Assembly: GCF_018882295.1 (NCBI RefSeq)
Contig: NZ_JACVOR010000001.1
Location: 806,001-870,000 of the forward strand
Direction of reading: 5' to 3'
From: Polynucleobacter sp. 80A-SIGWE
GTDB taxonomy: Bacteria; Pseudomonadota; Gammaproteobacteria; Burkholderiales; Burkholderiaceae
Length of the DNA stretch: 64,000 nucleotides
Below the pieces are notes generated by a model that worked only from the letters and a program-made list of their open reading frames with translations, did no database searches and had not been told where the DNA came from. Below are positions 30,049 through 51,799 of this stretch, piece by piece; positions within the stretch are counted from its first letter, which is position 1; the number at the start of each line of letters is the position of its first letter. The position numbers and the translations under genes are program-made.

Positions 30049-30095
30049 GCTTTAAGAAGAAAACTACACACCCCTTACTCTGGGGAATTCCAAGG

Positions 30096-34120: not shown

Positions 34121-34172
34121 GGCTATTAGCTCAAAGGCTTACAGATATTCACCTAGTAGATTGCTACTAATC

Positions 34173-34201: not shown

Positions 34202-34206
34202 TTAAG

Positions 34207-34815: not shown

Positions 34816-34857
34816 GACTTGGAGCTAGGCAAATGATTCTGTTTGCTTGGCAAGCCT

Positions 34858-35310: not shown

Positions 35311-35318
35311 GGGATTCA

Positions 35319-36095
35319 ATGGGAAATTTTCCAGAAATCTTCGCTGCATCCGTGCTGGGGCTAATTTTCGGTAGCTTTTTGAATGTGGTGATTCATCGCC
35401 TACCAAAAGCAATCCTGAAAGATGCTGACGCATCCTTAAATTGCTTGCTATGGCCAGGCTCTACAGCCCCTTGCTGTGGTGAAAAATTGTATTGGTATGA
35501 AAACATCCCTGTTATTTCATGGCTAGTCCTTGGTGGGAATTGTGGCCACTGCAAAAAGCCGATTACACCTAGATACATTTTGGTTGAATTATTAACAGGT
35601 GTCGCATTTGCCTGGTCTATTTGGGTTTATGGCTTAGGTATTACCGGTAGCGTGTATGCGCTGTTCTTTGCCATGGCAATCACGCTTTTCTTTATTGATC
35701 TCGAAACCTTTTTACTGCCAGATCGTTTGACCTTGGCCATGTTATGGCTTGGTTTATCCGCAGCAGCAATGGGGTATTTGCCCATCTCTCCTGTTGATGC
35801 AATTTTGGGTGCATGTCTTGGCTACCTTTTGCCTTGGGCGATTAATGCGGTCTATTACGCTGTCCGTAAGCACGATGGATTTGGGGGCGGTGACTTCAAA
35901 TTATTGGCGGCTTTTGGAGCTTGGCTTGGCTGGGCAGAAATCGTACCTATTCTTTGTGGCGCCAGCATTATCGGTTTGATAGTGATTGGGCTAGTGTCTA
36001 TTGTGAAGCGCGAAAGATTGCTGATGAGCCAAGCACTTCCATTTGGACCTTTTTTAATCTTGTCGGGGCTGAGCTTCGTGATAGGCGGTGCATAA
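35319..36095 (+). CDS. pilD: Type IV prepilin peptidase / N-methyltransferase
   Basis: A 258-residue inner-membrane aspartyl protease. Segments include the N-terminal FGSFLNVVIHRLP, WYENIPVISW, and the protease part FIDLETFLLPDRLT (Asp127/Asp135) with GGGDFKLLAAFG (Asp192). The cytoplasmic zinc motif is altered: the usual first cysteine is Ala50, while Cys52, Cys53, Cys75 and Cys78 are present. It cleaves and N-methylates the pilins of this locus. Confidence 0.95.
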   Translation: MGNFPEIFAASVLGLIFGSFLNVVIHRLPKAILKDADASLNCLLWPGSTAPCCGEKLYWYENIPVISWLVLGGNCGHCKKPITPRYILVELLTGVAFAWSIWVYGLGITGSVYALFFAMAITLFFIDLETFLLPDRLTLAMLWLGLSAAAMGYLPISPVDAILGACLGYLLPWAINAVYYAVRKHDGFGGGDFKLLAAFGAWLGWAEIVPILCGASIIGLIVIGLVSIVKRERLLMSQALPFGPFLILSGLSFVIGGA

Positions 36096-37097
36096 ATGGA
36101 AATTATTGATAAGGCCTTGCATTACGTTGCTAATTACAAGCTTTCTGACTTGCATTTACATGTTAATGAGCCGGTTGCAATTCGAGTGGATGGAGAGATT
36201 CAGACATTTGCAGACGATATCGTTACTCAAGTTGACTTCGATGCCTTTATTAAGAACTGGTTAACTCAAGAACAGCGTATTAAGTTTATGGAGTGCTTCG
36301 ACGCGGATCTTGCTGTTGAGTCTGGGGGCTATCGCTTTCGTGTAAATCTATTCAAAACATCTCAGGGCTTGGCTGCTGTGATGCGTAAGATTGAGAGCGA
36401 GATTCCAAGTTTTGATTCTTTGAGCCTACCTGCTGTAGCGCGCGATGTGATCGAGCAAGAAAATGGCTTGATTCTGGTGACGGGCCCAACTGGGTCTGGT
36501 AAGTCAACCACTCTGGCTGCGATGATTGATCGAATCAATCGCCATCGCCATGGGCACATCATTACGATCGAGGATCCCATTGAGTTCGTCCATCGCAATC
36601 AAAAGAGTGTGATCTCTCAGCGTGAGGTTGCCCGCGATACCTTATCTTTTTCATCTGCACTCCGAGCATCATTGCGTGAAGATCCGGATGTGATCTTGGT
36701 AGGGGAGTTGCGAGATTTAGAGACCATTCAGTTGGCCCTTACCGCCGCAGAGACTGGCCACTTGGTCTTTGGAACTTTGCATACCAGCGGTGCGCCAAAC
36801 ACAATCAACCGGATTATTGACGTCTTTCCTTCGCAGCAGCAGGATCAGGTGAGGGCACAACTGTCCCAGTCATTGCGTTTGGTAATGACTCAGCGCCTCT
36901 TAAGGCGCAAGGGTGGAGTAGGTCGAGTAGGCGCCTTTGAGGTAATGACATGCAACCCTGCCGTTCGCAATTTGATTCGTGAGAACAAAGTCTTTCAGAT
37001 ACCGAGTGTTATGCAGATGGCGCGTGGCGAGGGGATGATCACGATGGATGCTTCATTGCAGCAGTTAGCCCAAACAGGACAAATCGATCTGATATGA
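36096..37097 (+). CDS. pilT: Pilus retraction ATPase PilT
   Basis: A 333-residue hexameric ATPase that powers pilus disassembly and twitching. It has Walker A GPTGSGKST (about residue 130), the Asp box EDPIEF, Walker B DPDVILVGELRD and His box TGHLVFGTLHTSG. The C-terminal retraction motif reads AVRNLIRE, close to the canonical AIRNLIRE. It starts 1 bp after pilD ends and overlaps the next gene by 4 bp. Confidence 0.95.
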   Translation: MEIIDKALHYVANYKLSDLHLHVNEPVAIRVDGEIQTFADDIVTQVDFDAFIKNWLTQEQRIKFMECFDADLAVESGGYRFRVNLFKTSQGLAAVMRKIESEIPSFDSLSLPAVARDVIEQENGLILVTGPTGSGKSTTLAAMIDRINRHRHGHIITIEDPIEFVHRNQKSVISQREVARDTLSFSSALRASLREDPDVILVGELRDLETIQLALTAAETGHLVFGTLHTSGAPNTINRIIDVFPSQQQDQVRAQLSQSLRLVMTQRLLRRKGGVGRVGAFEVMTCNPAVRNLIRENKVFQIPSVMQMARGEGMITMDASLQQLAQTGQIDLI

Positions 37098-37666
37098 ACC
37101 AACACGGCGTTACCTTCTTAGAAGTGATTGTGGTCATCGCTATTTTGATGATTGCCACTTCTTTGGTTTCGCCTAGCATAGGTGATTGGAGGCAAAAGCG
37201 TGCTTTGGAATCTGATTTTCATGCGATCTTGAGTCAGATTGATTATTTAAAAACTAGGGCAAGAACAATCAATGGCACGGCTACCTTGAATTGCCAGAGC
37301 AGTACCGGCTCTGGCACCAGCATGACTTATCAAGTCTCTAGTGCTGCGCAAAATAGCGTTTTAAGTATTGGCAATAATTTTTCTAATAATTTGGTTGAGA
37401 ATCCTAGCTCTAAGGATCCTGCCTTCAATATCCTCAGCGGCAAATCGAGGGTGATATCCGCAATTTGTGGTGGATTACGTGGAATATTTATCTCTACTGG
37501 CCAGACTGGTATGGAAGGTAGTGGCTCGGCAATTGATATTGAGGTTGATCCAATTGCTAATAAGAATAAATATGGCGCCTATCGTGTTTTATTGAATCAG
37601 AGCACGGGCTTTATTCAGAAATTTAAGCTCAACGTTTCAACTGGTGCTTGGGTGGAGCTCGATTAA
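37094..37666 (+). CDS. fimT: Minor pilin, FimT/GspH-like
   Basis: A 190-residue pseudopilin with leader MNQHG and N-terminal helix VTFLEVIVVIAILMIATSL (Glu5 present). The body has the GspH/FimT organisation (DFHAILSQIDYLKTRARTING). It belongs to the set of minor pilins that prime assembly at the tip. It overlaps pilT (4 bp) and the next gene (1 bp). Confidence 0.87.
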   Translation: MNQHGVTFLEVIVVIAILMIATSLVSPSIGDWRQKRALESDFHAILSQIDYLKTRARTINGTATLNCQSSTGSGTSMTYQVSSAAQNSVLSIGNNFSNNLVENPSSKDPAFNILSGKSRVISAICGGLRGIFISTGQTGMEGSGSAIDIEVDPIANKNKYGAYRVLLNQSTGFIQKFKLNVSTGAWVELD

Positions 37667-38154
37667 TGATGACCCAGTCACTTTACCCCTCCCATTCTGC
37701 ACAAGGGATGCTTGGCTTTACTCTGATAGAAGCTTTGGTGGCGATGGCCATCTTTACTATTGGGTTCAGCGGCCTATATTTCTTTTATCACTTATCTCAA
37801 CATGCAATTGCTGATTCAGAGAAGCGCATGTACATCAATTTGATGGGCGATCGAATTATTCAGAAGATTGCCTCTGAGGGTCAAAGATCGGTTACGGATC
37901 CCTTAAACCCCTTTAATAATCCTTCTCAATATAGCGGAAGTTTAACTACCTGTAATTACCCCGCTACAGATAATCGTCAGTCCTGGTGCTTGGATCTTGC
38001 GAGCAATATTGGCCCTTTTAATCCAGCGTCACCAAAGGAGGTTCGCCAAGTCAATGTACAGAACGATGGTACGGGGCTGATTGTTGATGTCACACTGATT
38101 ACATCTAGCGGAAGCGTTGGGGCCTACTTCACTCGCAAGTTGAGGCAGCTATGA
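37666..38154 (+). CDS. pilV: Minor pilin, PilV-like
   Basis: About 162 residues from the ATG at 37666, which overlaps the previous stop (TAATG); a TTG 18 bases upstream is possible. Prepilin motif is QGMLG then FTLIEALVAMAIFTIGFSGL, typical of PilV/GspI. Tip-complex minor pilin by position and sequence. Confidence 0.87.
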   Translation: MMTQSLYPSHSAQGMLGFTLIEALVAMAIFTIGFSGLYFFYHLSQHAIADSEKRMYINLMGDRIIQKIASEGQRSVTDPLNPFNNPSQYSGSLTTCNYPATDNRQSWCLDLASNIGPFNPASPKEVRQVNVQNDGTGLIVDVTLITSSGSVGAYFTRKLRQL

Positions 38155-38819
38155 CACATTCTAGTCACGGCTATACCTTGGTAGAGATGCTTGTTGCTAT
38201 GGCAGTGACATCTATAGTGTTGGCTGGTACTTATGCGGCCTACACATTTTTTGCTCAGCAACAACAATCATTGTTAGCCCAGACTGAGGTTGATCGTGGT
38301 GCGCTGAGGGCGATTGATTTAATGCAGTCCGATATTCGTATGGCTGGCTTTAAGGACTACTTTAATGCCAATGCTATGCCTGCAAGCCAAGCCATTGTCC
38401 TTGCTAGTAGCACTCCTGGGGATGTCCGTTTTGTATACGATGATTACGATAGCTCCGGTAATTTATATCGTGCTTTGGTGCGTTACTACTTAACTACATT
38501 CACTTCAACTACTGGACTTACGCGGAATCGTTTGTTGCGTGAATGGCGCAAATGCAATAACCCTAGTCAGATTTGTGACCTAAGCAACTCAACCCCCTTA
38601 ACGGGCTCAACTAGTGGTGAGCCAGTCTTGGACTGGGTCAGTAATTTCTCTGTAAAGGGAATGAATCCAAGGGTATCGGGAAGTTTTGCCAATCAATTTC
38701 AAACGATTCAGGTGAATTTAGTGGTTGATTCTCCAAAAAAGATTGAGGGAACAGTCCGCAAAGTGAGCAAAAGCTTTACCTTTTTAGCGAGGGCTAAAAA
38801 TGTCTCCATGGTCCCCTGA
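38151..38819 (+). CDS. pilW: Minor pilin, PilW-like
   Basis: A 222-residue protein with leader MTHSSHG and helix YTLVEMLVAMAVTSIVLAGT (Glu5). The following LRAIDLMQSDIRMAGFKD matches PilW/GspJ-like proteins. It overlaps pilV and the PilX-like gene, indicating a coupled minor-pilin set. Confidence 0.9.
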   Translation: MTHSSHGYTLVEMLVAMAVTSIVLAGTYAAYTFFAQQQQSLLAQTEVDRGALRAIDLMQSDIRMAGFKDYFNANAMPASQAIVLASSTPGDVRFVYDDYDSSGNLYRALVRYYLTTFTSTTGLTRNRLLREWRKCNNPSQICDLSNSTPLTGSTSGEPVLDWVSNFSVKGMNPRVSGSFANQFQTIQVNLVVDSPKKIEGTVRKVSKSFTFLARAKNVSMVP

Positions 38820-39429
38820 TTCTCAAATGATTGCCACACATGCGCTGACCAATGTGTCTGGCCAGTCTGGGCTTGCGCTCGTTGTCAGCCTCGTTCTGCT
38901 ATTGGTGCTTACTGCCATGGGGATGGGCTTGGCCTACGTTGCCTCAGTGCAGTCGGATTTGGTTGCCGCTGTGGCGAATAAACCATTGTCAATTGATGCC
39001 AGTGAAACCTGTTTTGATAATGCCGTGGAGTGGTTGTCCAAACCGGCCGGTCAAAGCTGGGTAAATGGTCTTGGTGCGCCGATTGATTTGGCCGTAAGCG
39101 GTGGCCCACTTGCTGGAAAAACAGTGCTAGGGGATACCGTTCCAGTAGGACAGTCTGATTCTCGCTCAGTTCAGTTTAAGACTCGCGCTGGACGTGCCGC
39201 TTATTCATCTTGCATTGTGGAAAAAATTTCATCTAGCACTAACGGTAGTTCTGGAAATGAAATTGGATCTTCCAATGGATATGGTGCTAGCAATTTTGTC
39301 TACACCATTCGCATGACTGCGGTTGGAAATTACAACGTTGCTTTCAATGGCACTGCAATTAACCCTAATTTTTGGCAATCGAATTCAAGCAAATCAGTGC
39401 TTGAAGCCGTTGTTCAATACACGCCATAA
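38800..39429 (+). CDS. pilX: Minor pilin assembly protein, PilX-like
   Basis: A 209-residue protein with N-terminal helix LALVVSLVLLLVLTAMGMG after SGQSG; Glu5 is absent, as in several PilX/GspK-like proteins. The position between PilW- and PilY1-like genes supports PilX. It overlaps pilW by 20 bp; an ATG nine codons in (38827) is an alternative start. Confidence 0.82.
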   Translation: MSPWSPDSQMIATHALTNVSGQSGLALVVSLVLLLVLTAMGMGLAYVASVQSDLVAAVANKPLSIDASETCFDNAVEWLSKPAGQSWVNGLGAPIDLAVSGGPLAGKTVLGDTVPVGQSDSRSVQFKTRAGRAAYSSCIVEKISSSTNGSSGNEIGSSNGYGASNFVYTIRMTAVGNYNVAFNGTAINPNFWQSNSSKSVLEAVVQYTP

Positions 39430-39441
39430 AGGGGGAACAGA

Positions 39442-42400
39442 ATGACTCTAATTTCCCCGGTGTTGAGGATGTGTCGAAATGTTCGCTACATTTCATCATG
39501 CCTGCCCATATTCGCAATGGGAATTGCTCATATTGCTTATGCAGCAAGCTCTTTCCCAAGTTTCGGAATTATTCATAACTCCCTCGTACCGGCAAATCAA
39601 ACCATTATGTTGGGGGTTAATCCTGCTGGCAATTTGAACACTATTAACGGCGCAGGAACTGCGGCAAATAATTCTGCAAATCAACTCTATCTGTCTGATG
39701 GCAGAACTAGGATTAACGGCGTCAATGCAGGTTCAGTGGGAATTTCTTACTATTGGCAGGGGGCGCAAAAGAAAGATTCGAATGGCAATCTGATTGCAAA
39801 CAAATTCTATCCAAAGGGTTGGTATGACTCTACTAGTCAGGGAAGTAAGTGGGAGTCGTGGTCTGCTGGAGCTATTGATAATCGGAACCAACAGGCTTGG
39901 GCCTCTATTAGTCAGCAAATTGGTGAAGGTAATGCTACAGCCTTAACCAGCATGACCGTTAAAAGCTTTACTGTTGACTCCACTAGCGTTAAGTCAACAG
40001 TTTGGATTGCTGATACCTCAGGCATACCGATGCTGGAGGTCACTCATCTCTACGGACCTACATCTGGAGCCACCAATCAAAGCTTGTTTCAGGGTTTGGT
40101 CACCATTACTAATATTTCTGGCGGCACCCTGAGAGATGTTCGTTATAGACGAAGTATGGATTGGGACTCTATCGAAAATATGACCGATGCCTCAGTTGAT
40201 GCTGTGGGTGTTGCTTCTTCTTATAACGGTACAAACTACCCAAAGATTTGGAGTTATTGCGATAACGGAGGTGAGGACAATAAAGATGCCAATCCTTTTA
40301 CCGCATGTAAGCCAGTCAATGCTGCCTCATTAAATCGTGACTCTACTGGATTGCATGGGCAGATCGGATCATCCTTTGACTTTCAGTTTGGCGACCTGCA
40401 GTGCAATGAATCCGCTACTTTTTATATTTACTATGGCGCTGCAGGCTCGCGCGCAACTCTAACTGCAGCAATGACTAGTGTGGGTGTTACGACCTACTCA
40501 ATGGGGTACGATCCAGATTACCCAACCTTGGCGTATGCATTTGGCTTTAAGGGCGTAAGTGGCACCGCCGTACCGCCAGCCCTACCGACTAAAGTAGCCT
40601 CTCTTCCAGCAGGCAGCAGTACTGATCCTAACGTTTATCAGACTTACGCGCCGCCAGTGCTAGGTGACGGAACTATTTATCAGGCTTTGTTTAAGTATCA
40701 AAAAGATAAACAGTGGATTGGTGAAATTAAGCGCTACAACTTAGATGCTACAGGCGCGCTAACAAATGATCCGCCTGTGCTTGCCACTGAAAAGTTAAAG
40801 ACTCGTGCGGCAATCAACGCATCCTATGGGCTTGGTGGCCGCTCTATTTGGACGGTAGGTTTTGATCCTGCATGTATGTCTGGGGGTTTGAGTAATGACT
40901 CAAGTAATAATAACTTCACTTTAACGAATGCAAACGCACTAGAAAGTCTTTTATTTAATTGTCCGAAAAGTCCAAATCCTACCGCCACCAGTGATTTGAT
41001 TAGCTTCTCTAGGGGCTTAAATTCCTACTGGGAAGAAAATGCCCCAGTAACAGCTGTTCGTTCCTCGGTATTGGGTGATACCTACCATTCCGAGATGGTG
41101 CTGGTTGGTGCACCCAATGCGCCTTGGAGTTCCGACGTCAATATGTTTAGTAAGTCTGAGGCTTACTATCGATATACCAAAGGCTATAGCGGCTTTATTG
41201 CCAACAATGCAACGCGCCGCCCTCAGATCTATGTGGGTGCGAATGATGGCATGGTGCACGCATTTGACGCCGACTTAAACGAACGTTGGGCATTTATTCC
41301 TCCATCTGTGTTGCCGATGTTGCGGAATATGACGGGGGAAAAGGGTATTGCTACTGGCGGCGGAACCAGTAATAGCACTTTTAGTGTGGATGGCCCTATT
41401 ACCGTTAAGGATGTGTACTTCAATGCCGAGGGCAAATGGAAGACTGTCTTGATGGGTGGCTTAGGCTGGGGTGGTAATAGCTACTATGCACTTGATATTA
41501 CTGATCCAGATTTACCAAAACATTTATTTACTGTAAGTAACGACGTTTCTAATAAATTAATTAATTATTGGGATGCCAGCGGTAAAAAATCAACCTTTGC
41601 CTATAACGCTGCCTGCACCCAATTTGATTACTCAAAGCTAGGTGGTGCATGGTCTAGACCAGTCATCATGTTATTGCCCTATGCCGAGGGTTCAGATAAA
41701 CAGCGTTGGGCAGCGGTATTTGGAGGGGGTTTTGCTGGTGGCGCATCCGTTACCGGAACTGGATCTTCTAGTTCATTCGGCGCGTATGTATATGCCATCG
41801 AGATGGAGCCAGATTCTGGTGTAACAACGGCAAGTTGCGGTGCCACTGGAAATGCAGTTGTAGCCTCTACTGGTGGTCATGTCATCGTTAATGCGCCATT
41901 AGTAAGTGATGGTAGCTCCAATATCCCTAATGGAGTAACTGCCCATTTAACTGTGGTGACCGGAGATGGCACATCACTGGCTAACTACTATGGCGGGATT
42001 GCTTACTTCACAGACTTGCAGGGTGAATTGTGGAAATTCAACTTAAGTAAAAGTAGTCTGAGTGATAGTAATGCCAGTTTATTCACTCTATACAAATCAT
42101 TCAGAAGTGAGGCGACTTTAGCCAATGATCGGATGGGCTACAACCAATTGGCCACAACGATCGTGAATGGCAAAGATAGCAATGGAAACAATATCAGTCG
42201 CCTATTCAATTATTTTGGTACAGGTGATCTCACTCGTATTCAGCGCAGAGTCTCCACAATTAATAACCGTATATACGGTGTGTCTGACTCAAACTTTCCT
42301 TTGAGTTCTCTAGCTGCTACCGATCAGACTGCCGCAGCCTTTGCAAATGTTGATGCGCAAATGTGTAGCGCTAATAGCTCCTGGTATGCCAATGTCTGGG

Positions 42401-42768
42401 CTAAAACCAATGTGAGTTCTGCCGCTGACTATCAAAAAATTATTGGTAGAGCTGCAATTCATAACAAGTATGTGTATTTCTCAGCCTATCAACCTGAGGC
42501 TCTTTCATGTCCCCTGTACGGAACCAGCCGCTTAATTGAGCTAACCGACGTTTGCCAGGCGGGAAGTGGTGGGGCAGTTATTGGAACTGGTCTGGCCACT
42601 GCACCAATAGTAGATGCCAAAGGGAACATTTATGTGGGTATGAGCAACCTACAGCCCGGAACGACTTTGTCTTCTGGTCGCGACAACATTGCCAAGTTAG
42701 TGGGAAGCAATGCTTCCTCCAATAGCAAGGTGCAATACAAATCCTGGAGAGAAAAGCGTGTCTATTAA
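39442..42768 (+). CDS. pilY1: PilY1-like tip adhesin/assembly factor
   Basis: An 1108-residue secreted protein with a signal peptide (about residues 1-33, ending YAA). The C-terminal half is the PilY1 beta-propeller, beginning about residue 590 with QIYVGANDGMVHAFDADLNE and FIPPSVLPMLRNM. The N-terminal half differs from classical PilY1: no vWA metal site (DxSxS) was seen. Instead it contains a segment (about 285-380, FDFQFGDLQCNESATFYIYYG) resembling surface-protein domains. PilY1 proteins sit with the minor pilins at the pilus tip and promote adhesion and surface sensing. The stop overlaps the next frame. Confidence 0.9.
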   Translation: MTLISPVLRMCRNVRYISSCLPIFAMGIAHIAYAASSFPSFGIIHNSLVPANQTIMLGVNPAGNLNTINGAGTAANNSANQLYLSDGRTRINGVNAGSVGISYYWQGAQKKDSNGNLIANKFYPKGWYDSTSQGSKWESWSAGAIDNRNQQAWASISQQIGEGNATALTSMTVKSFTVDSTSVKSTVWIADTSGIPMLEVTHLYGPTSGATNQSLFQGLVTITNISGGTLRDVRYRRSMDWDSIENMTDASVDAVGVASSYNGTNYPKIWSYCDNGGEDNKDANPFTACKPVNAASLNRDSTGLHGQIGSSFDFQFGDLQCNESATFYIYYGAAGSRATLTAAMTSVGVTTYSMGYDPDYPTLAYAFGFKGVSGTAVPPALPTKVASLPAGSSTDPNVYQTYAPPVLGDGTIYQALFKYQKDKQWIGEIKRYNLDATGALTNDPPVLATEKLKTRAAINASYGLGGRSIWTVGFDPACMSGGLSNDSSNNNFTLTNANALESLLFNCPKSPNPTATSDLISFSRGLNSYWEENAPVTAVRSSVLGDTYHSEMVLVGAPNAPWSSDVNMFSKSEAYYRYTKGYSGFIANNATRRPQIYVGANDGMVHAFDADLNERWAFIPPSVLPMLRNMTGEKGIATGGGTSNSTFSVDGPITVKDVYFNAEGKWKTVLMGGLGWGGNSYYALDITDPDLPKHLFTVSNDVSNKLINYWDASGKKSTFAYNAACTQFDYSKLGGAWSRPVIMLLPYAEGSDKQRWAAVFGGGFAGGASVTGTGSSSSFGAYVYAIEMEPDSGVTTASCGATGNAVVASTGGHVIVNAPLVSDGSSNIPNGVTAHLTVVTGDGTSLANYYGGIAYFTDLQGELWKFNLSKSSLSDSNASLFTLYKSFRSEATLANDRMGYNQLATTIVNGKDSNGNNISRLFNYFGTGDLTRIQRRVSTINNRIYGVSDSNFPLSSLAATDQTAAAFANVDAQMCSANSSWYANVWAKTNVSSAADYQKIIGRAAIHNKYVYFSAYQPEALSCPLYGTSRLIELTDVCQAGSGGAVIGTGLATAPIVDAKGNIYVGMSNLQPGTTLSSGRDNIAKLVGSNASSNSKVQYKSWREKRVY

Positions 42769-44479
42769 TAATCCCTTTCAGCCAATCTTGAAGGCGTTTA
42801 TTGACGCCCTCAGTCGATATTCCATTAAGCAGGAGGATGTCGTAGGGATTGATATCACCCCCAACTACATTCGTGTGGCGCAGCTCACTGAAAATGCAGA
42901 TGGATGGCTTTTAGAGAAGCTAGGCTATAAACATGTAGCGGAGAACGCTTCTTTAAAAGATATTCATGATTCCCAAGATGAATATGTTCAAAAACTCAGG
43001 GAGCTAATTACTAGTGCAAATTTAGAGACAGCTAACGCAGCGATCTCCATTCCTATTACTAGTGCCATTGTGCGAACCGTCACGATGCCATTGATGAGCG
43101 AGGAAGAGATTGAAAGCGCAATTCAATATGACTCGCTGTGGAGCAATATTCTTCAGCTCGAAGAAAAGCTAGATGAGTACTCCATCTTCTGGCAGGTCAT
43201 TCGTCGTAATACTGCTGAAAATACGATGGAGCTGCTCTTTGTCGCATCCAAGTTATCTGAAATTAATCAGTACGTACAAATTGCTACCAAAGCTGGTTTG
43301 AATCCAGTGGTGGTTGACGTACGTTGCTTTGCAATCCGAAATGCCCTTAAAGCTCATAAATCCAGATCTCAGGGTACTACCGCACTGATTGAATTTGGCC
43401 CACACGAGAACTACGTCCTGATCGTTACAGATGACACGCCGTTTATCTATGACATCTATATCTCGGAAGCTGATAGAGCATTGATTGAAGCGGGAGAGTT
43501 GGATGGTGATCAGGGCGATCGACTTTACGACCGTTTTGCCGGGCAGATTCTGCAGGCATTTAGGGCGTATGAAGTCAAGCTAGGAAAAAATCTGATTGAT
43601 CAAGTATTGCTTGTATCCCCCGTGCAAAAGAGGGCGGAGTTACTTGGTCAGATGCGTAAAGCATTGGATGGTTATCAGATTGATTTGTTTGATCCGCTAT
43701 CAGATCTTCAGATTCCAAGTAATTTAGATGATGTTATCGAATCAGAGGCCAATCCATCTGTATTTACCTCTGCTATTGGCCTAGCTGTTCGAAAAGTAGA
43801 TATCTTTGGTTATTACAAATATGTAACAGGCGTAAACAACGTCAACTTGTTGCCAAACCGAGATGTGGTTAAGCAAATTGAGCGTAAAAAGATCTTGTCT
43901 AAAGTTGGAATCTTTGCAGGGGCCTTGTTAGTGGTCCTGTTTGTAATCGGCACATTGCTGTATCAGTACTTTTTTAATAATGCCCTAAGCAGTCAATATC
44001 AAACTGCCGTGCAAATTGAGAAGCAAGTGCAAATGAAAGAAGCTTCACTGGCTTCACTCAAGGCGCAGAAATCTAAATACTCTCAAATGTTAGAGGCCAG
44101 CAAGGAGTTCAAGACTAATCAGGTGTCGAACTATCAGCTCTTAAGTGCCATTAATCAGACAGTGCCTGGTGGTTTGTGGTTTACCACCATTGCTTTTGAC
44201 AGCCCCAATACCTTAGTTATCAAGGGTGAAGCCTCTAATGATCAGGTTATTGGCAGCTTTATTGAGCGGCTCCAAAGGGTGCCTATGATTGAAAGGGCCT
44301 CCTTACAAAATATGACTTTGAATTCTGCTCCCGTACAACGCAAAGGTGGCGGCGCAAAGCAATTTGAAGTTCGCTGCATTGTGACTAATACGATGGCTCC
44401 AGTAGTTCCATCTCAATCCATGAAGCCTGTGGTCGCCCCAAACAATCCAAGACCTGCTGCGTCTGAGTCATATATCTAA
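42758..44479 (+). CDS. pilM: Fused PilM-PilN inner-membrane alignment protein
   Basis: About 573 residues from GTG at 42758, chosen for GGAGAG (42745-42750) at the right spacing; an ATG further upstream (42710) lies inside pilY1. The N-terminal ~350 residues are PilM-like (actin-like fold, VVGIDITPNYIRVAQL, SIPITSAIVRTVTMP). At about 358-368 comes VNNVNLLPNRD, the PilN N-terminal peptide that docks into PilM in other bacteria, followed by one membrane helix (about 380-402) and a PilN periplasmic domain. The two proteins, normally separate, are one chain, so PilM is covalently membrane-tethered. It is followed by another fusion, PilO-PilP. Confidence 0.9.
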   Translation: MSINNPFQPILKAFIDALSRYSIKQEDVVGIDITPNYIRVAQLTENADGWLLEKLGYKHVAENASLKDIHDSQDEYVQKLRELITSANLETANAAISIPITSAIVRTVTMPLMSEEEIESAIQYDSLWSNILQLEEKLDEYSIFWQVIRRNTAENTMELLFVASKLSEINQYVQIATKAGLNPVVVDVRCFAIRNALKAHKSRSQGTTALIEFGPHENYVLIVTDDTPFIYDIYISEADRALIEAGELDGDQGDRLYDRFAGQILQAFRAYEVKLGKNLIDQVLLVSPVQKRAELLGQMRKALDGYQIDLFDPLSDLQIPSNLDDVIESEANPSVFTSAIGLAVRKVDIFGYYKYVTGVNNVNLLPNRDVVKQIERKKILSKVGIFAGALLVVLFVIGTLLYQYFFNNALSSQYQTAVQIEKQVQMKEASLASLKAQKSKYSQMLEASKEFKTNQVSNYQLLSAINQTVPGGLWFTTIAFDSPNTLVIKGEASNDQVIGSFIERLQRVPMIERASLQNMTLNSAPVQRKGGGAKQFEVRCIVTNTMAPVVPSQSMKPVVAPNNPRPAASESYI

Positions 44480-44489
44480 GGTCGCCAAT

Positions 44490-45800
44490 ATGTTAAATCT
44501 CAATGAATTGAAGAACGTCGATCTTGGTACCTTATTTAGATCGCTCCTATCCAATAAGACAAGCCTTATTAAAGGGCCTTATGCCAAGGTCATTCTTTGG
44601 GGGTTGCTGGGATCCATTCTGTTCTTTGCTTATGTGTATTTCATCTTTTGGCCAAATTTAGAGCAGCGTCAGGAGATGCAGCGCAAGGTCGACGCCATTC
44701 CGGAGATGGAGTCTAGGTTACGCTATTTGGACGTTGCCAATCAAAAGGCGGAAGATGATCTCCGTCAGTCCGAAAGAGGTTATGCAGAATTAAATCAACT
44801 CTTCAGCGTGGAGTCTGAGTTAGAGGAGTTGTATCAGCGCCTCAGTATGATGGCCTCGTCTCAAGGATTGGTGATCAGCTCTCTGACGAAAGAGGGTGAA
44901 GAGGCAATTTATGCTGGAGCTAAGCCAACGCCAGGCGCTCAGGCTAATGGATCAGTGGCTCCAGCGCCAGCACCTCCAACTGCTCCAGGAGTTGCCAATG
45001 GCACAACTCAAGGACAACCCTTGTTTTACCGCATCAAACTCAAGATCGAGCTTACTGGTCAGTATGGTCGTTACATGCGTTATCGCAAGCTTCTATCTGA
45101 GTTTGATAAGAGCATCAATATTGATAAAGAGCTCATCACCTTAGTTGCTGGGGATAACCGTGGCACGGTGGTAGTGAAGTCTCAGCTCTCTACTTATCGT
45201 TTGCCGAATAAGCTGCTGGCTAAACCAGTTCAACCTAGTGCTGGTGCTGAAGCATTGCCGCCTCCAACAATGCAGCCTGTACAGTTTTTGCAAGATACTC
45301 GCATGGGCTTTATGAAGGTAGCTGCAGGCGCCGATCCTCTATCTGGATCTAGCTCTCCTTCAATTATGGGACCACAAACTCGTGTGATTGCTGGATCCGC
45401 TCAAGGAACCACCGAAGAAGTGATTATCAATAATGGCCCAGGTGCAGATGCGCGTAAGGGCGGCACTCAAGAGAGAGATCCATTTGCTCGATCTTCCAGC
45501 GGAATGATTGAGGGTGGTCGTGACTCTCGCGTTTCTCCACTGGTGATGGCTGGTCCGCAGTCATACGTGATTACTGGAGTCATTGTCTCTAATTCAGTTA
45601 AGGCGGCGATGGTACGCACCGACTTCAGAGAAAACTACGTTGTCAAAGTAGGGGATCGCTTAGGCAATCAGGGTGGCGTAGTTGTTGATATTGATATGGA
45701 AGGCATTCTTTTGAAGCAGCCCAATGGAAAGATTCGAATCTATCTGCAATCTCAATCGGGGCAGCCAATGGCAAGCCCTAACGGCGGAATGGCGAGGTAA
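44490..45800 (+). CDS. pilO: Fused PilO-PilP inner-membrane alignment protein
   Basis: A 436-residue protein. The N-terminal ~240 residues are PilO-like: a membrane helix (about 33-54), coiled coil (about 57-110) and a periplasmic core interrupted by an Ala/Pro linker (about 148-170). A long flexible segment leads to QERDPFARSS (about 327) and a PilP/GspC-type domain (about 350-420, YVITGVIVSNSVKAAMVRTD and YVVKVGDRLGNQGG). PilP is normally a separate lipoprotein linking PilNO to the secretin; here it has no signal or lipobox and is joined to PilO. The stop overlaps the secretin start. Confidence 0.88.
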   Translation: MLNLNELKNVDLGTLFRSLLSNKTSLIKGPYAKVILWGLLGSILFFAYVYFIFWPNLEQRQEMQRKVDAIPEMESRLRYLDVANQKAEDDLRQSERGYAELNQLFSVESELEELYQRLSMMASSQGLVISSLTKEGEEAIYAGAKPTPGAQANGSVAPAPAPPTAPGVANGTTQGQPLFYRIKLKIELTGQYGRYMRYRKLLSEFDKSINIDKELITLVAGDNRGTVVVKSQLSTYRLPNKLLAKPVQPSAGAEALPPPTMQPVQFLQDTRMGFMKVAAGADPLSGSSSPSIMGPQTRVIAGSAQGTTEEVIINNGPGADARKGGTQERDPFARSSSGMIEGGRDSRVSPLVMAGPQSYVITGVIVSNSVKAAMVRTDFRENYVVKVGDRLGNQGGVVVDIDMEGILLKQPNGKIRIYLQSQSGQPMASPNGGMAR

Positions 45801-47314
45801 TGATGTTAAAAAAATGGATATTCTTAATTCCGGTATTTATCGCCTTAAGTGGTTGTGAATCCTTGCCCCCTCAATCTGATGCGCAAATGCGCAAACAAAT
45901 GGGGCTTGATCCCGCTCAAATTATGGCGGACCTTGCACCTAAAACGGATCAAACCTTAGCATTAGGGCCAAAGATTGAGCGTAAGCCTACTGAACAGCTT
46001 GATCAAATTCGTCGGAATTTTATTAATGAATCCCAGCGGACTGAAGATGGGCAGTGGAAGTCCTTTAACGTCAATTTGAACTTTGTTGATGTGGATATTC
46101 GCGAATTGGCGCAGGCAATGACCCAGATTTCTGGTGTCAATATATTGGTGGGTGACGAGGTTGATGGGACGGTTACTGTCAAGATCAATAATGTTCCTTG
46201 GGATAAGGCTCTCGATAATATTTTAAGGATCAAAGGCCTTTCTAAGAGCGTAGACCCTGGCTCCAACATCATCCGCATTCAAAAACCAGAAACTGTATTA
46301 GCTCGAGATGAGTTTGAAAGAAAACGTCTAGAAGAGGTTAGCCGTCAGATTGCAGCTAAGCGTATTGTAAGTACTCAAGTGACGGAAATTTTCCGCCTGT
46401 ACTACACCAAGCCAGGCATTGTGAAGAAGCAGTTAGAGGCGATCTTTGGTGGAAATACTGGTGCCGCTGGTGGTGCAACTGCACGTCCACCCGGTGGAAT
46501 TATTGAAATCACTACTGATGAGCGGATTAACTCCATCATTGTGAAGGGCACCCAAAGTGAGATGGAGCTAGCTGCAAAGCTTATTTCTAAACTCGATATC
46601 CGCACGCAAGAGGTTTTGATTGAGGCATTTATTGTTGAGGCTGATGACGATTGGCAGTTTGAACTCGGCAGTCGATTTGGGTACAAAAATACTTCCGGAA
46701 ACGGAACCTCAACCAATCCGACCAGTACGGTTGCTGGTACTGCAGCCGATGGCAATATTTTCAATCGGGCAGTGGCAGGTGCTCCGTTTGGTCTGGGCTA
46801 TTTATTTCAAACAACAGCTTCTCAGCTAAAGGTTGAGCTATCTGCAATGGAGAAATTGAGCCTCGTCAAAATCATTTCTAATCCGCACGTCTTCACGATG
46901 GATAACGAAGAAGCTGTAGTCATTGATGGAGTTCAAATTCCATATCCAGTGCCTGGTATAGGTACCAATCAGATTACTTATGAGTTTAAGGATGCAGCTT
47001 TAAAGCTGACCGCTACTCCAAGTATTGTGGGTGACGGCAATTTGTTCCTAAACATGATTGTGAATAAGGACTCCCCGAACTACTCAACAAATCCACCGTC
47101 TATTAATAAGCGCGAAGTTCGTAGCAAGCTGTTGATTCAAGATGGCACGATTGCTGTGATTGGTGGTATCTACGATCAAACCAAAGAAAACACAGTTGAG
47201 AGAGTACCTTTGCTTGGAAGCATTCCTTTGATTGGAAGCTTATTTAGCTACACAAAGAAGGCTGATAAAAAGACTCAGCTACTGGTATTTATTGCTCCAA
47301 AGATCCTTAATTAA
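45800..47314 (+). CDS. pilQ: Type IV pilus secretin, short lipoprotein form (PilQ/MshL-like)
   Basis: A 504-residue outer-membrane secretin. It has a lipoprotein signal with lipobox LSGC (Cys19), one N0/STN-like module (VNLNFVDVDIRELAQAM to about residue 150), one N1 domain (about 185-275) and the secretin core (about 275-504) with VPLLGSIPLIGSLF near the end. It is shorter than typical PilQ and shows no N-terminal AMIN domains, so it resembles MshL-type secretins. The pilus passes through this ring. Confidence 0.9.
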   Translation: MMLKKWIFLIPVFIALSGCESLPPQSDAQMRKQMGLDPAQIMADLAPKTDQTLALGPKIERKPTEQLDQIRRNFINESQRTEDGQWKSFNVNLNFVDVDIRELAQAMTQISGVNILVGDEVDGTVTVKINNVPWDKALDNILRIKGLSKSVDPGSNIIRIQKPETVLARDEFERKRLEEVSRQIAAKRIVSTQVTEIFRLYYTKPGIVKKQLEAIFGGNTGAAGGATARPPGGIIEITTDERINSIIVKGTQSEMELAAKLISKLDIRTQEVLIEAFIVEADDDWQFELGSRFGYKNTSGNGTSTNPTSTVAGTAADGNIFNRAVAGAPFGLGYLFQTTASQLKVELSAMEKLSLVKIISNPHVFTMDNEEAVVIDGVQIPYPVPGIGTNQITYEFKDAALKLTATPSIVGDGNLFLNMIVNKDSPNYSTNPPSINKREVRSKLLIQDGTIAVIGGIYDQTKENTVERVPLLGSIPLIGSLFSYTKKADKKTQLLVFIAPKILN

Positions 47315-47319
47315 TCAAG

Positions 47320-49107
47320 ATGGCCACCATGGATAACTCACAAGAAGTAGCGCGTTTTTGCTTGGATCGGGGTCTGGTAGATCTTGTTCGATTTAAGCAG
47401 GCCGAGACGCAGAGCAAGGTAAGCGGTAAGCCTTTGTACGATGTCTTGGTATGTTCGCATCTGATCGATGATCGTATGGCAAAAGAGGCTATTTCCTCCT
47501 ATCTGGATTTGCCGATTACCAATTTGGCAGATATTCATCATCAAATCGAGCGGCATTTGGATGCTATTCCTGCAAGTTTTGCCATGGAAAATCGAATCAT
47601 TCCATTTGCTGCAGATGATAAAGAAATTAAGGTGGCCATTGCGGAGCCGAGCGCTTTACGCAGTATTAGTAGCGTTCGCTTGATTACCGGAAAAAGTATT
47701 TCAGCCTACATCGTTTCTCCCACTGAAATGGAGGGCTTAATTAAGGCTGTGCAAGACAGCTCCCCTAAGTCATCTAAGGGTGGCAACGTCAGCATCAATG
47801 TCACTAAGGCATCCAATACGGTAGTCGATAAAAATAAATTGAATGCCAATAAGCTCAACAGCTTGATGGGCAAGCAATCGGTACTTGCTAAGCCCGCTCC
47901 AGATACCCATGAGCAGGCTGATGATAGTCAGGGCAATCACGTTATCTCCTTTGTAAATGACATGATTACCGATGCGATTAAACAGGGGGCGAGCGATATT
48001 CATATCGAGATGTACAAAGAGTCAGCAACGGCACGTTATCGCGTAGATGGTGTTCTGGAAGAGTGCAAGAGCCTTAAGGAGTTCTTATTTGCGCACTATC
48101 CCGCAGTAACTACGCGACTCAAAATCATGGCCTCCTTGGATATTTCAGAGCGGCGTTTGCCGCAGGATGGCGCGATTACCATGTCCTTGCCCGAGGGTAG
48201 GGATGTCGATTTGCGGGTTTCTATTCTGCCAACTGTCTTTGGTGAGCGCGTGGTTATGCGTATCTTGGATCGAGATGGCATCTCATTTGATTTAGATAAG
48301 CTCGGTTTTCCAGAAAAAGAATATGCAGATGTGGTTTCTGCTTTCGAGTCTTCCCAGGGAATGGTTTTAGTTACAGGCCCAACGGGATCTGGTAAGTCAA
48401 CGACTTTATATGGGGCGCTAAAGCGTCTAAATAAGCCGGGTGTGAATATTTTGACCGCTGAAGATCCGGTCGAGTTCACTATCGACGGTGTCGGGCAAGT
48501 GCAAATTCGAGATGATATTGGCCTAACTTTTGCCTCTGCCTTGCGCTCATTCCTTCGTCAGGATCCAGAGATCATTTTGGTGGGTGAGATTCGCGATAAA
48601 GAAACTGCAGACATCTCCATCAAGGCTGCCTTAACAGGGCACTTGGTGCTGTCAACCCTTCACGCTAATGACTCTATCAGCACTGTTGTGCGTTTAATCA
48701 ATATGGGTATCCCGGGTTACTTGATTGGCGCTGCATTAACTCTGGTGATCGCCCAAAGATTGGCTCGAAAAATATGTCCAGCCTGTAAGCAGCCGCATGA
48801 AGGAAATCACGAAGCCATACTTCTAAATCTAGGTTTCAGTCCCGAGGCAGCTAAAGCGGCGAAGCCATATCACGGCGCAGGTTGCGATAAATGCAATCAC
48901 ACTGGATACAAAGGTCGCCAAGGAATATATGAAGTATTGAAGGTGAGCGAGGCAATGCGAGCTGCAATTGTTTCTGAAGATAGAAGGAGCTTAAGAAAGA
49001 TTGCTGAGGATGATGGATTTCGACCGATGCAAGCGATTGGCAGGCAGATGGTGATGGATGGGCTTCTCACGATTGAGGAATACCAAAATAACTTAGTCTT
49101 CAACTAG
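47320..49107 (+). CDS. pilB: Pilus extension ATPase PilB/GspE
   Basis: A 595-residue assembly ATPase. An MshEN-type N-terminal domain (about 1-155) precedes the motor: Walker A GPTGSGKSTTLYGAL (about 349), Asp box EDPVEF, Walker B DPEIILVGEIRD, His box TGHLVLSTLHAND. A tetracysteine zinc site follows (CPACKQPH and CDKCNHTGYKGRQG). It powers filament growth, opposing PilT. The MshEN domain can bind cyclic di-GMP in relatives; its key residues were not verified here. An ATG three codons in (47329) is an alternative start. Confidence 0.94.
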   Translation: MATMDNSQEVARFCLDRGLVDLVRFKQAETQSKVSGKPLYDVLVCSHLIDDRMAKEAISSYLDLPITNLADIHHQIERHLDAIPASFAMENRIIPFAADDKEIKVAIAEPSALRSISSVRLITGKSISAYIVSPTEMEGLIKAVQDSSPKSSKGGNVSINVTKASNTVVDKNKLNANKLNSLMGKQSVLAKPAPDTHEQADDSQGNHVISFVNDMITDAIKQGASDIHIEMYKESATARYRVDGVLEECKSLKEFLFAHYPAVTTRLKIMASLDISERRLPQDGAITMSLPEGRDVDLRVSILPTVFGERVVMRILDRDGISFDLDKLGFPEKEYADVVSAFESSQGMVLVTGPTGSGKSTTLYGALKRLNKPGVNILTAEDPVEFTIDGVGQVQIRDDIGLTFASALRSFLRQDPEIILVGEIRDKETADISIKAALTGHLVLSTLHANDSISTVVRLINMGIPGYLIGAALTLVIAQRLARKICPACKQPHEGNHEAILLNLGFSPEAAKAAKPYHGAGCDKCNHTGYKGRQGIYEVLKVSEAMRAAIVSEDRRSLRKIAEDDGFRPMQAIGRQMVMDGLLTIEEYQNNLVFN

Positions 49108-49114
49108 GATTGCG

Positions 49115-50362
49115 ATGCCAGATTTCGATTGGAAGGGAATACAAAATAAGCAGTATGTCTCGGGAACGGTAAATGCCTTGACCCGCGACGAGGCTGCGCA
49201 CAAGCTCAAGCTGGATGGAATCATCATTACCCAGTTAATTAAGAAGTTGCGAGAGGCTGAGAAAGAAGTTAAAGAGAGGCGAAGTTGGAAAGAGCTCTTT
49301 GATTTTAAAAAGAAGGTCAAGTTAACTCAGATTATGATCGCAACCAAAAAAATGGCGACCATGCTGAGATCGGGTTTATCTATCCTGCCTTCTTTGGAGA
49401 TGGTGCGAGATCAGACAGAAAACCCAACGCTAAAAGAGGCTATGGCAAAGGTATCTCAAGATGTTGAGTCTGGATCGAGCCTTTCCCAATCTTTTGCAAA
49501 GCATCCCGATATCTTCAATTCCATCTATATCAATATGGTTAAGGCAGGGGAGTCGAGTGGTCGACTGGATATCTTCCTAGATAAGTTGGTGGGCAGTATT
49601 AGGAAGACTATTAAGATTCGTAAAAGTATTCAGTCTGCCATGCTGTACCCAACTATTTTGCTAGTTGTAGCTACGGTAGTAGTGGGCATCATGATGATCT
49701 TTGTCGTGCCTGTATTTGCACAGATGTTTGGCAGTATTGGCTCCCAGCTCCCAGCACCAACCTTATTCATCATGAGTATTAGTAACTTCCTAAGGGACCC
49801 TTATGGGGGTGGCCTTATGGTGGTAATCATCGTTGTTGGCATCTATCTATTTCGTAGGGCAGTTAAGCAGAGCGTTGCGTTTCGCAAGAAATGGCATAAC
49901 TATCTATTAAAGATGCCGCTAATCGGTGAAATGATCTTGAATTCGAATTTGGCGCAGATCTCGATGGTGTATGGAAATCTCTCCGGTGCAGGCGTCCCTG
50001 TAATCGAGGCTTTGGATATTACAGCCGAGTCATCCAAGAATGAGGTGATTAAGGATGCCATTCAATCCGCCAAGCGGGGGGTATTTTCAGGGGAGCCACT
50101 ATCAAAGCTGTTGGCTGAGATCACTATTTTCCCTAAAACATTTTCACAATTAATTTCCGTTGGGGAGCAGACCGGAAATATGACGGAGATGCTTGAAACC
50201 ATTAGTAGTTACTTCGAGGAAGAATTTGATTCGACGGTAGATAAGCTATCCCAGATGATGGAGCCCATCATGATCTGTTTCTTGGGCGGAGTTATTGGAT
50301 TCATCTTAGTTGCGATGTATCTCCCTATCTTCAAGATGGGTCAAGTGGTTACGGGGTCATAA
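49115..50362 (+). CDS. pilC: Pilus inner-membrane platform protein PilC/GspF
   Basis: A 415-residue protein with two repeated cytoplasmic domains (T2SSF; about 70-195 and 275-395) and three membrane helices. Family segments include MATMLRSGLSILPSLEMV and SVGEQTGNMTEML. It forms the rotating platform for PilB and PilT. Good ribosome binding site (AGGA) 7 bp after pilB. Confidence 0.95.
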   Translation: MPDFDWKGIQNKQYVSGTVNALTRDEAAHKLKLDGIIITQLIKKLREAEKEVKERRSWKELFDFKKKVKLTQIMIATKKMATMLRSGLSILPSLEMVRDQTENPTLKEAMAKVSQDVESGSSLSQSFAKHPDIFNSIYINMVKAGESSGRLDIFLDKLVGSIRKTIKIRKSIQSAMLYPTILLVVATVVVGIMMIFVVPVFAQMFGSIGSQLPAPTLFIMSISNFLRDPYGGGLMVVIIVVGIYLFRRAVKQSVAFRKKWHNYLLKMPLIGEMILNSNLAQISMVYGNLSGAGVPVIEALDITAESSKNEVIKDAIQSAKRGVFSGEPLSKLLAEITIFPKTFSQLISVGEQTGNMTEMLETISSYFEEEFDSTVDKLSQMMEPIMICFLGGVIGFILVAMYLPIFKMGQVVTGS

Positions 50363-50367
50363 GCCTT

Positions 50368-50958
50368 ATGAAGCGCTTTTTACTCCTATCTTTTTCCTGT
50401 CTATATTGGACCATGGGCAATGCTGCCACTCAGCAATATCAAGACATCTCTTTAAGTAATCGTCAGGAATTGCGTCAAAAGTTCTATAGCGGCAGCCCGG
50501 TTAATTCATTTAAGGATGTGACCCATGCCATCCAGTGGATAAGTCAGCAGTCCTACCAACTGCGAAAGAAAATCCCCGATGATCATAAGCGACGTGAACT
50601 ATTGAGGATGATTCACTATGAAGCTACTCGCTATCAATTGGATCCAGATTTGGTGCTTGCATTAATCGAGGTGGAAAGTGGTTTCAATCGATTTGCACTT
50701 TCTCACGTTGGCGCCTCTGGACTGATGCAGGTCATGCCTTTTTGGAAGGGGCTGATTGGAGTGGAAAAAGATTCCCTATTCGACGCCCAAACTAACTTGC
50801 GATATGGCTGCATCATCTTGCGCCACTACCTGGACATTGAAAAAAATGATGTTGCTAGAGGGTTGGCTAGATATAACGGCAGCCTTGGTACGGATACCTA
50901 CTCATCCTTAGTTCTTAATACATGGCAGGCAAAATATCGTTATGCGCTCAATAACTAA
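50368..50958 (+). CDS. Lytic transglycosylase, SLT type
   Basis: A 196-residue periplasmic protein with signal peptide (about 1-19, ending GNA) and an SLT/goose-lysozyme-like domain: catalytic Glu in ALIEVESGFNRFALSHVGASGLMQVMP (in two parts LIEVESGFNRF and ASGLMQVMP), and ARYNGS near the end. Such enzymes cleave peptidoglycan glycan strands; beside pilC it probably opens the wall for the pilus machine. It overlaps the next gene by 17 bp. Confidence 0.9.
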   Translation: MKRFLLLSFSCLYWTMGNAATQQYQDISLSNRQELRQKFYSGSPVNSFKDVTHAIQWISQQSYQLRKKIPDDHKRRELLRMIHYEATRYQLDPDLVLALIEVESGFNRFALSHVGASGLMQVMPFWKGLIGVEKDSLFDAQTNLRYGCIILRHYLDIEKNDVARGLARYNGSLGTDTYSSLVLNTWQAKYRYALNN

Positions 50959-51799
50959 AACAATCATTTTTAGCTGTTCAATACTCTTGCCCGCTATTGC
51001 CTTTGGAAAATGCATTGGCGACCAGAATTCTCCGTATCCAGTGCGCAGCGTTTATGTGGTTCCACAAATGGCTGCATCACAGCTGTATGTTCGTTGGAGC
51101 CCGGTCTTGGAGAAGGTGGGCCTAGCTGCAGGCATCTGTTTTGATTTAACAATTGTCCAGACTATTCCAGATTTTGAACGTGAGCTCTTGAGTGGCAAAC
51201 CCAATTTTGCCTTTATGAACCCTTATCACGAGGTTATGGCCTATCGCGCTAAGGGGTACTTGCCCTTATTGGCTGATGGTAAAAATCAGCTGGATGGAAT
51301 TATTGTTGTTAGAAACAAAAGTAAGATCGAAAATATTAATGATTTGCGTGGCGCTAAGTTGGCGTTCCCAGCACCAAATGCATTTGCAGCCTCCCTCTTG
51401 GTGCGGGCCACCCTAGCAAAACAGGGAATTAATATCGAACCAATTTATGTTAAATCCCACAACAATGTTTATAGATCGGTTATTGCTGGCGATGTCAGTG
51501 CTGGAGGCGCTGTAAACAATACATTGCAAAGAGAGCCTGCTGAAGTTCAGGAGCAGCTCCGGGTGCTCTTTAAAACAAGTGGTTATATGCCGCACCCGTT
51601 TTCCGTAAATCCAAAAATCCCATTAAAGGAGCGTAATCTGGTAGTGCAAGCTTTTCTGGATTTGGCAAAAACCGATGAGGGTCGTCGACTATTAGATGGC
51701 ATTCAGATGCCGGAGCCTATTCCAGTGAATTACGCCCGAGATTACCAGTCCTTGGAGGGTTTGGGTTTAGAGAAATTTGTGGTGAATAGTGCTAACTGA
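50942..51799 (+). CDS. PhnD-like periplasmic binding protein coupled to a diguanylate cyclase
   Basis: A 285-residue secreted protein (signal peptide about 1-22) of the phosphate/phosphite/phosphonate-binding (PhnD-like) family: FAFMNPYHEVMAYRAKGYLP and DLRGAKLAFPAPNAFAASLLVR. No transporter genes adjoin it; instead it overlaps by 11 bp a GGDEF gene. It therefore probably senses a ligand for that cyclase rather than feeding a permease. The ligand need not be a phosphonate. Confidence 0.85.
   Translation: MRSITKTIIFSCSILLPAIAFGKCIGDQNSPYPVRSVYVVPQMAASQLYVRWSPVLEKVGLAAGICFDLTIVQTIPDFERELLSGKPNFAFMNPYHEVMAYRAKGYLPLLADGKNQLDGIIVVRNKSKIENINDLRGAKLAFPAPNAFAASLLVRATLAKQGINIEPIYVKSHNNVYRSVIAGDVSAGGAVNNTLQREPAEVQEQLRVLFKTSGYMPHPFSVNPKIPLKERNLVVQAFLDLAKTDEGRRLLDGIQMPEPIPVNYARDYQSLEGLGLEKFVVNSAN

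Follow-up and report, generated by a model that had tools for sequence, protein, structure and literature searches.

A window of 64,000 nucleotides from Polynucleobacter sp. 80A-SIGWE (contig NZ_JACVOR010000001.1, positions 806,001 to 870,000) was found to carry a pilus gene cluster in which PilM is fused to PilN, and PilO to PilP. We consider it quite probable that these genes encode the platform that a type IVa-like, retractile pilus has in the inner membrane, with M, N, O and P built as two chains and a proposed role as a dock for the pilus motors. The central element is the PilM-PilN fusion gene (42758..44479, 573 amino acids; this and all other genes and protein features below lie on the + strand), which was delimited from its open reading frame (ORF), Pfam matches, related genes and the substitution pattern of its linker. 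Loci and genomes are referred to by our own labels (L and G numbers), and statements cited by PMC number come from excerpts of those papers.

PilM and PilN are encoded in one continuous frame

The fusion ORF begins with GTG at 42758, downstream of a GGAGAG resembling a ribosome-binding site, and ends with TAA at 44479; its start overlaps the 3' end of the PilY1 ORF (42768). An in-frame ATG at 42710 would extend the product to 589 amino acids, but the relatives begin with MNNP or MKNP, next to 42758. Residues 30-214 (42845..43399) match PilM_2 (Pfam E 1.5e-20; 73.9 bits versus a cut-off of 27), and the actin-like fold reaches about residue 343. There follow a conserved linker recognized by its substitution rates and an FGY[YF] motif (residues 346-362, 43793..43843), the NLLP motif that is the PilM-binding peptide of canonical PilN (residues 363-366, 43844..43855, within VNNVNLLPNRD at 359-369), a predicted membrane helix (about residues 376-406, 43883..43975) and the PilN periplasmic domain (residues 460-540, 44135..44377; PF05137, E 6.4e-11, above cut-off). 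The helix, predicted from hydropathy and spanning 368-406 in the AlphaFold2 model, is the single strongly hydrophobic stretch of the protein, with its best 19-residue windows starting at 379-384, so the fusion has the Pfam domain, the one membrane helix and the cytoplasmic NLLP segment expected of PilN. The initial annotation had assigned PilM, NLLP, a membrane helix and PilN to a single reading frame, and this is borne out, with both Pfam domains over their cut-offs. Because PilM and PilN form one polypeptide, its proposal that PilM is tethered to the membrane at 1:1 with PilN is supported as well, and should hold unless the chain is cleaved after synthesis. It had overlooked the PilO-PilP fusion next to it, the degenerate nucleotide motif, the lipoprotein-type secretin and the earlier descriptions of such fusions, all taken up below.

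The frame was followed in related genomes, as the initial annotation had proposed. A scan of named genomes returned nine related loci, including Candidatus Thioglobus and a metagenome-assembled genome (MAG) named Desulfobacteraceae, and the frame was continuous in eight of them, all that hold the whole gene; in the ninth (L010, a MAG named Piscirickettsiaceae) the fusion is cut by the contig end, yet includes PilM, linker and NLLP. The nearest named relatives, from Polynucleobacter and other Burkholderiaceae or beta-proteobacterial MAGs, are 60-87% identical, and the frame also runs without stops in three further genomes of the window's genus. Across 10 Polynucleobacter-type sequences, linker codons 346-362 had a proportion of nonsynonymous differences (pN) of 0.005 versus a proportion of synonymous differences (pS) of 0.752, while pN was 0.148 in PilM and 0.246 in the PilN domain; we give pN and pS rather than a dN/dS ratio because synonymous sites were saturated. 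To judge from these rates, the linker is conserved by selection, and the wider stretch 340-372 is conserved as well, without being at the top (rank 71 among 507 windows, the first being rank 0). A sequencing or assembly error that masks a stop between ordinary pilM and pilN could in principle produce such a frame, since canonical pilM and pilN may abut or overlap (in L065, L068 and L072 end and start share a coordinate) and one error could join them. However, the same frame recurs in full-length relatives taken from different assemblies, almost all of which share the linker, and the linker pN also speaks against an error; a stop hidden between residues 340 and 375 is therefore ruled out, and we regard this explanation as improbable in the extreme.

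Linker and junction separate the fusions from canonical proteins

The initial annotation had also named, as an outcome that would undo it, relatives with two separate genes and the same junction, and none was found among the canonical rows examined. Junction motifs were counted in 32 of 33 fusions (L056 was dropped for its NLLS junction) and in 12 canonical rows, which represent 11 genes as L059 and L067 are the same gene; L062-L064 and two others did not match the pattern and were dropped. The linker is absent from all 12 canonical rows, where PilM terminates just after GLAxR, and its FGY[YF] motif is present in 31 of the 32 fusions scored. Between the PilM end and NLLP (G341 to P366) the spacing is nearly fixed, at 26 residues in 31 of 32 fusions and 25 in one.

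AlphaFold2 models of the full protein (mean predicted local distance difference test score, pLDDT, 72.6) and of residues 1-376 (mean pLDDT 77.2) both contained a well-folded PilM. Their top structural matches were PilM chains (5eou, 2ych and 3jc8; Z 27-29 over 310-322 residues), which places the fold close to solved PilM structures. PDB 5EOU came first for both models, with Z 29.1 (root-mean-square deviation 3.7, 320 residues) and 28.6, and was tied with 2YCH (28.5 and 28.4); the alignments to 5EOU stop at different model residues (365 and 359), and docking of NLLP in cis, as read by the initial annotation, was not borne out by either model.

Fused PilM departs from the nucleotide-binding motifs

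The motifs of the actin-type nucleotide-binding fold were not recovered in fused PilM, where we take the residues concerned to be the adenosine, phosphate-1 and phosphate-2 motifs. The GG of the adenosine motif was present in none of the 32 fusions and in all 12 canonical rows, and the phosphate-1 Lys in one fusion and again in all canonical rows; an E.G..EN signature in phosphate-2 showed the reverse distribution, occurring in 31 of 32 fusions and in no canonical row. No spare PilM was found in the same genome, where one other, weak PilM_2 match was seen; this ORF was read as MreB and rejected as a second PilM. Canonical PilM binds ATP (PMC6145873), and from the motif changes we infer that control by ATP has been lost in the fused form.

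A second fusion joins PilO to PilP

Immediately downstream, a 436-residue protein (44490..45800) comprises PilO (about residues 9-238), a variable linker and PilP (about residues 327-410). These assignments come from BLASTP comparison with the separate proteins of L009, a MAG named Desulfobacteraceae, in which PilO and PilP both exceed the Pfam cut-offs of their families: residues 9-238 are 31% identical to its PilO (E 3e-34) and residues 327-410 are 30% identical to its PilP (E 4e-11). In Pfam, the window protein has a PilP match below cut-off (E 0.003) and no PilO match. PilO of L009 and L011 stops where the Polynucleobacter protein continues into the variable linker, and this long linker replaces the signal-like start of PilP. 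In each of the 10 Polynucleobacter-type loci the two parts share a frame (L008 being cut by the contig end), whereas no PilO-PilP fusion was found in L009, L011 or 21 SAR11-like loci, where PilO is separate except in L028 and L056. Separate PilP was recognized in L009, L011, L039, L042 and L058. In the place of PilP, L028 (7902-9170) and L056 (5151-6359) have a gene with LysM repeats (three and two stretches, respectively), and PilO was not found there.

The lipid anchor seems to have moved to the secretin

The next gene (45800..47314) encodes a PilQ-type secretin, identified by TIGR02515 (PilQ; 311 bits, over the cut-off of 284) and Pfam, in which no AMIN domain was matched; it falls below the GspD cut-off in NCBIfam. 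It carries a lipobox (LSGC), and by pattern the same holds for the secretin in 26 of 32 fusion-clade loci. Among the six misses, L054, L055 and L058 gain a lipobox with a GTG start, L009 and L028 have an atypical Cys, and L026 has a broken frame. At canonical loci, a secretin was present in six of the eight examined, none with a lipobox, and PilP with a lipobox occurred in recognized ORFs of L067, L068, L069, L074 and L075; PilP of the type IVa pilus is a lipoprotein (PMC6145873). Where PilP is separate within the fusion clade (five proteins), its signal-like start lacks a lipobox, and the window's PilP, fused to PilO, has no lipobox by pattern and thus does not qualify as a lipoprotein; canonical PilP and signal peptides were identified by eye, without a predictor. 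On these patterns, the lipid anchor seems to have moved from PilP to the secretin.

The surrounding genes form a probable retractile pilus cluster

The fusion lies within a set of pilus genes that begins with two pilin-like genes (34288-34815 and 34843-35310, the second with sub-cut-off matches alone) and the prepilin peptidase PilD (35319..36095; Pfam). A PilT/PilU retraction ATPase (36096..37097) was recognized by TIGR01420 (447.7 bits, over the cut-off of 319). It is followed by four minor-pilin-like genes starting at 37094, 37648, 38151 and 38800 (37094..39429; sub-cut-off matches for the first and last) and by the tip protein PilY1 (39442..42768; PF05567). Beyond the secretin lie a PilB-type extension ATPase with an MshEN domain (47320..49107) and a PilC/GspF-type platform protein (49115..50362), both identified with Pfam and NCBIfam. 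With PilT/PilU and the PilQ secretin, the cluster has two components expected of a type IVa pilus system. The cluster does not qualify as a mannose-sensitive hemagglutinin (MSHA) pilus, as MshL reached 91 bits against 250 and PilT/PilU is present; loss of PilT is described for the MSHA pilus (PMC10191384). At one fusion locus (L026, genome G023), PilM-PilN is intact, but PilY1, PilB, PilT and the start of PilQ lie in broken frames, reflecting either decay or sequencing errors.

Fusions are rare in Polynucleobacter and frequent in a small-genome order

Within the window's genus, the full fusion was detected in 4 of 61 sampled genomes, its own included, each with one match over nearly the whole profile; the other PilM_2 matches in the genus, taken together rather than individually, had E values of 1e-6 or weaker and fell nearly all at profile positions 170-240. 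Among 150 genomes of the family, 26 matched the fusion profile, with 2 full fusions and 24 partial matches; in the latter PilN lies apart from PilM, wherever PilM was matched at all, and in some a stop stands between them. One candidate fusion, G195, with PilN in a 622-residue open frame, was rejected, since PilM ends after GLALR in another frame. At the phylum level, PilM_2 matched at E <=1e-8 in 210 of 398 genomes, and the open frames among the matches listed were 343-419 residues long, except for two; these (G850 and G937) were likewise rejected as fusions, with PilM ending after GLALR and PilN in another frame. This survey undercounts divergent fusions because the window protein itself scores no better than 1.6e-18. 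With the fusion profile at E <=1e-30, matches were obtained in 1 of 369 class genomes (its own) and 2 of 398 phylum genomes, the second being G904.

The order of G904 consists of small genomes (1.1-1.5 Mb; G+C 0.29-0.35 in the loci read), which we infer from this size and composition to be SAR11 (Pelagibacterales). There, 35 of 117 genomes matched at E <=1e-15, of which 34 were nearly full-length in one frame (29 at >=467 bits and 5 at 206-230) and one was partial. Twelve of these SAR11-like loci (L046-L055, L057 and L058) have an extra N-terminal stretch of about 225-300 residues on the fusion, with uncertain start codons, and the two scanned gave no further Pfam match in it. A triple fusion of PilM, PilN and PilO in these frames of about 790-853 residues was considered and rejected in the 12 loci read, as PilO is a separate gene and the extra length is N-terminal. 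No viral contig was confirmed to carry the fusion, and no plasmid was found with it.

A tree was built from 33 fusions, including 21 of the 34 full-length SAR11-like matches, and eight concatenates of canonical PilM and PilN; in it, a branch supported at 100/100 set all fusions apart from the concatenates. The concatenates came from 11 loci tried, a set that does not include L066 and of which three gave no match in the motif search; faulty trimming left row L046 with 39% of columns. Long branches meet in this tree, so the order within the fusion clade is unsure. The occurrence of fusion members across Polynucleobacter, Candidatus Thioglobus, the Desulfobacteraceae MAG and the SAR11-like order suggests transfer, although mis-binning of MAGs is possible. 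The fusion of that Desulfobacteraceae MAG (L009) is about 40% identical to the Polynucleobacter one, as either transfer or mis-binning would allow.

The cluster lies in an accessory block

The whole pilus cluster sits in a block of about 23.0 kilobases (30048..53069) that is absent from a close relative, G008, in which the flanks are adjacent (window 30047|53070 corresponds to L078 7772|7667). Its right edge can be placed only approximately, since the start of the annotated Dus ORF is at 53025; the Dus of G008 is 97% identical to that of the window. Besides the pilus genes, the block carries a histidine kinase and a response regulator (recognized by eye), a lytic transglycosylase, and phosphonate-binding-type and GGDEF-type proteins. 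L079, L080 and L082 have the same neighbors, likewise without the pilus genes, and show further changes nearby. In G036 the cluster again lies beside the histidine-kinase gene, whereas in G002 and G023 tens of kilobases or more separate it from the Dus gene of the genome, so that its place differs among genomes. In G+C (0.43-0.47) the block is unremarkable, and no integrase was noticed among its ORFs of at least 150 residues, in which no search was aimed at integrases. From its distribution, the cluster appears to move as an accessory block among planktonic bacteria.

Platform model and alternative explanations

The preferred reading of a two-chain platform starts from what the sequence contains, namely PilM joined by a fixed-length linker to NLLP, the membrane helix and the PilN periplasmic domain, and PilO joined to PilP. 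With such fusions PilM would be unable to leave the membrane, and M:N and O:P would each be held at 1:1. We propose that NLLP fills the PilM groove, of its own or of a neighboring chain, and thereby holds PilM in its PilN-bound state, which would then serve as a permanent dock for the PilB and PilT motors, much as GspL anchors GspE. Fused PilM would no longer need ATP, and probably does not bind it canonically.

Docking strictly in trans, in which the linker is too short for the chain's own groove and NLLP enters a neighboring PilM to form a ring or chain by domain swap, would fit the fixed linker length, which suggests a geometric constraint, and monomer models that place the peptide without confidence. 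Such low confidence may, however, stem from shallow alignments (9 and 10 rows), and the engineered chimera 5EOU is one of two tied top structural matches, so we hold this arrangement to be rather unlikely while keeping it in view. It is more doubtful still that the loss of a stop between overlapping genes gave rise to the fusion as a neutral by-product, without consequence beyond co-expression: overlap of the canonical genes makes fusion an easy step, yet the linker exceeds the sum of the two ends, having an added, nearly invariant segment, and changes in the PilM motifs accompany it. The gene could also be GspL of a type II secretion system rather than a pilus protein, as PulL/GspL has the same domain order, GspE and GspF models also match the neighbors, and GspM weakly matches the PilO-PilP protein. 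Neither Pfam nor NCBIfam listed a GspL family with E values up to 0.1, however, so that the protein does not qualify as GspL; moreover, the NLLP segment is kept, and in the cluster it is accompanied by PilT, PilY1 and a secretin that exceeds the PilQ cut-off but stays under that for GspD. We therefore judge this identity very unlikely.

Several observations weigh against the two-chain pilus platform or parts of it. TIGR01175 (PilM) gave 93.3 bits, under the NCBIfam cut-off of 133, PilB reached 574.7 of 675.65 bits and the PilC models about 302 of 700, both under equivalog cut-offs. The sole NCBIfam match of the PilO-PilP protein is a sub-cut-off GspM, and PilP of L009 also matches T2SSC, below cut-off. 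The linker and NLLP have pLDDT <50 in both models (residues 348-372 and 349-376), built from the shallow alignments mentioned above, and loss of motifs is not the same as a measured loss of ATP binding. The deepest fusions, L028 (G904) and L056 (G944), lack FGY[YF], and L056 has NLLS instead of NLLP; because these two lack the linker motif, a single origin of the fusions is not proven. As Campylobacterota fusions are absent from the tree, it likewise does not show a single origin of all fusions.

Comparison with known systems and implications

Fusion of PilM to PilN is as such already known: in most Campylobacterota type IV pilus clusters pilM and pilN are fused (PMC11870540). An actin-like/PilN-type fusion has also been described in type II secretion (PulL/GspL; PMC10191384), where GspL anchors GspE (PMC4471445). 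Like PulL/GspL, the window fusion has an actin-like cytoplasmic domain, a membrane helix and a PilN-type periplasmic domain in one chain, but it differs in keeping NLLP, in its company of PilT, PilY1 and a PilQ-type secretin, and in matching no GspL family. The Campylobacterota fusions share its setting within a type IV pilus cluster of order MNOPQ, while a PilO-PilP fusion goes unmentioned in the excerpted description (PMC11870540), with which, rather than with sequences, the comparison was made. For Thiovulum, also of the Campylobacterota, type IV pilus genes are reported, and the excerpt does not mention PilM or PilN (PMC9938260). PDB 5EOU (Pseudomonas aeruginosa PilM:PilN(1-12)) resembles the window protein in having PilM and a PilN peptide in one chain, with the peptide, to judge from the residue numbers, at the C-terminus, but is engineered, contains the peptide only, apparently has no added linker (again from the numbering) and was solved with ATP bound. 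Canonical type IVa pilMNOPQ of the same family (e.g., G124, G201 and G085) has the same components in the same order, whereas in the loci read its genes are separate, GG is present, the linker is lacking and the lipobox is on PilP instead of the secretin.

No report of a PilM-PilN fusion in Polynucleobacter or SAR11 was found in the literature searched, with most subscription papers outside it and Thioglobus not named in the searches. The linker-defined clade, PilO-PilP fusion, motif loss and moved lipobox were not found reported either, in searches of which none was aimed at the PilO-PilP fusion or the lipobox. Related settings have been described: a SAR11 adhesin gene is reported to adjoin genes of type IV pili and/or type II secretion (PMC12636525), and a planktonic member of the Methylophilaceae to have a flexible island with an incomplete set of pilus genes (PMC10872708). 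A broader and more tentative reading, to which we give not quite an even chance, is that the cluster represents a subclass of retractile type IV pili that has spread by horizontal transfer among streamlined planktonic bacteria. On this reading, its platform has converged on the type II secretion design: a constrained linker joins PilM to PilN, PilM is released from control by ATP, Polynucleobacter-type loci also have PilO joined to PilP, and a secretin that possibly pilots itself to the outer membrane has taken over the lipid anchor from PilP.

The questions whether PilM has to cycle on and off PilN and whether it uses ATP bear on how pili switch between extension and retraction. A natural machine that has a retraction motor while its PilM stays bound to PilN and has seemingly lost the nucleotide motif would offer a ready test of both questions. 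It may also illustrate how a pilus platform could have given way to the fused design of type II secretion, and several aquatic lineages would be linked by a pilus cluster that they have in common and that is apparently mobile.

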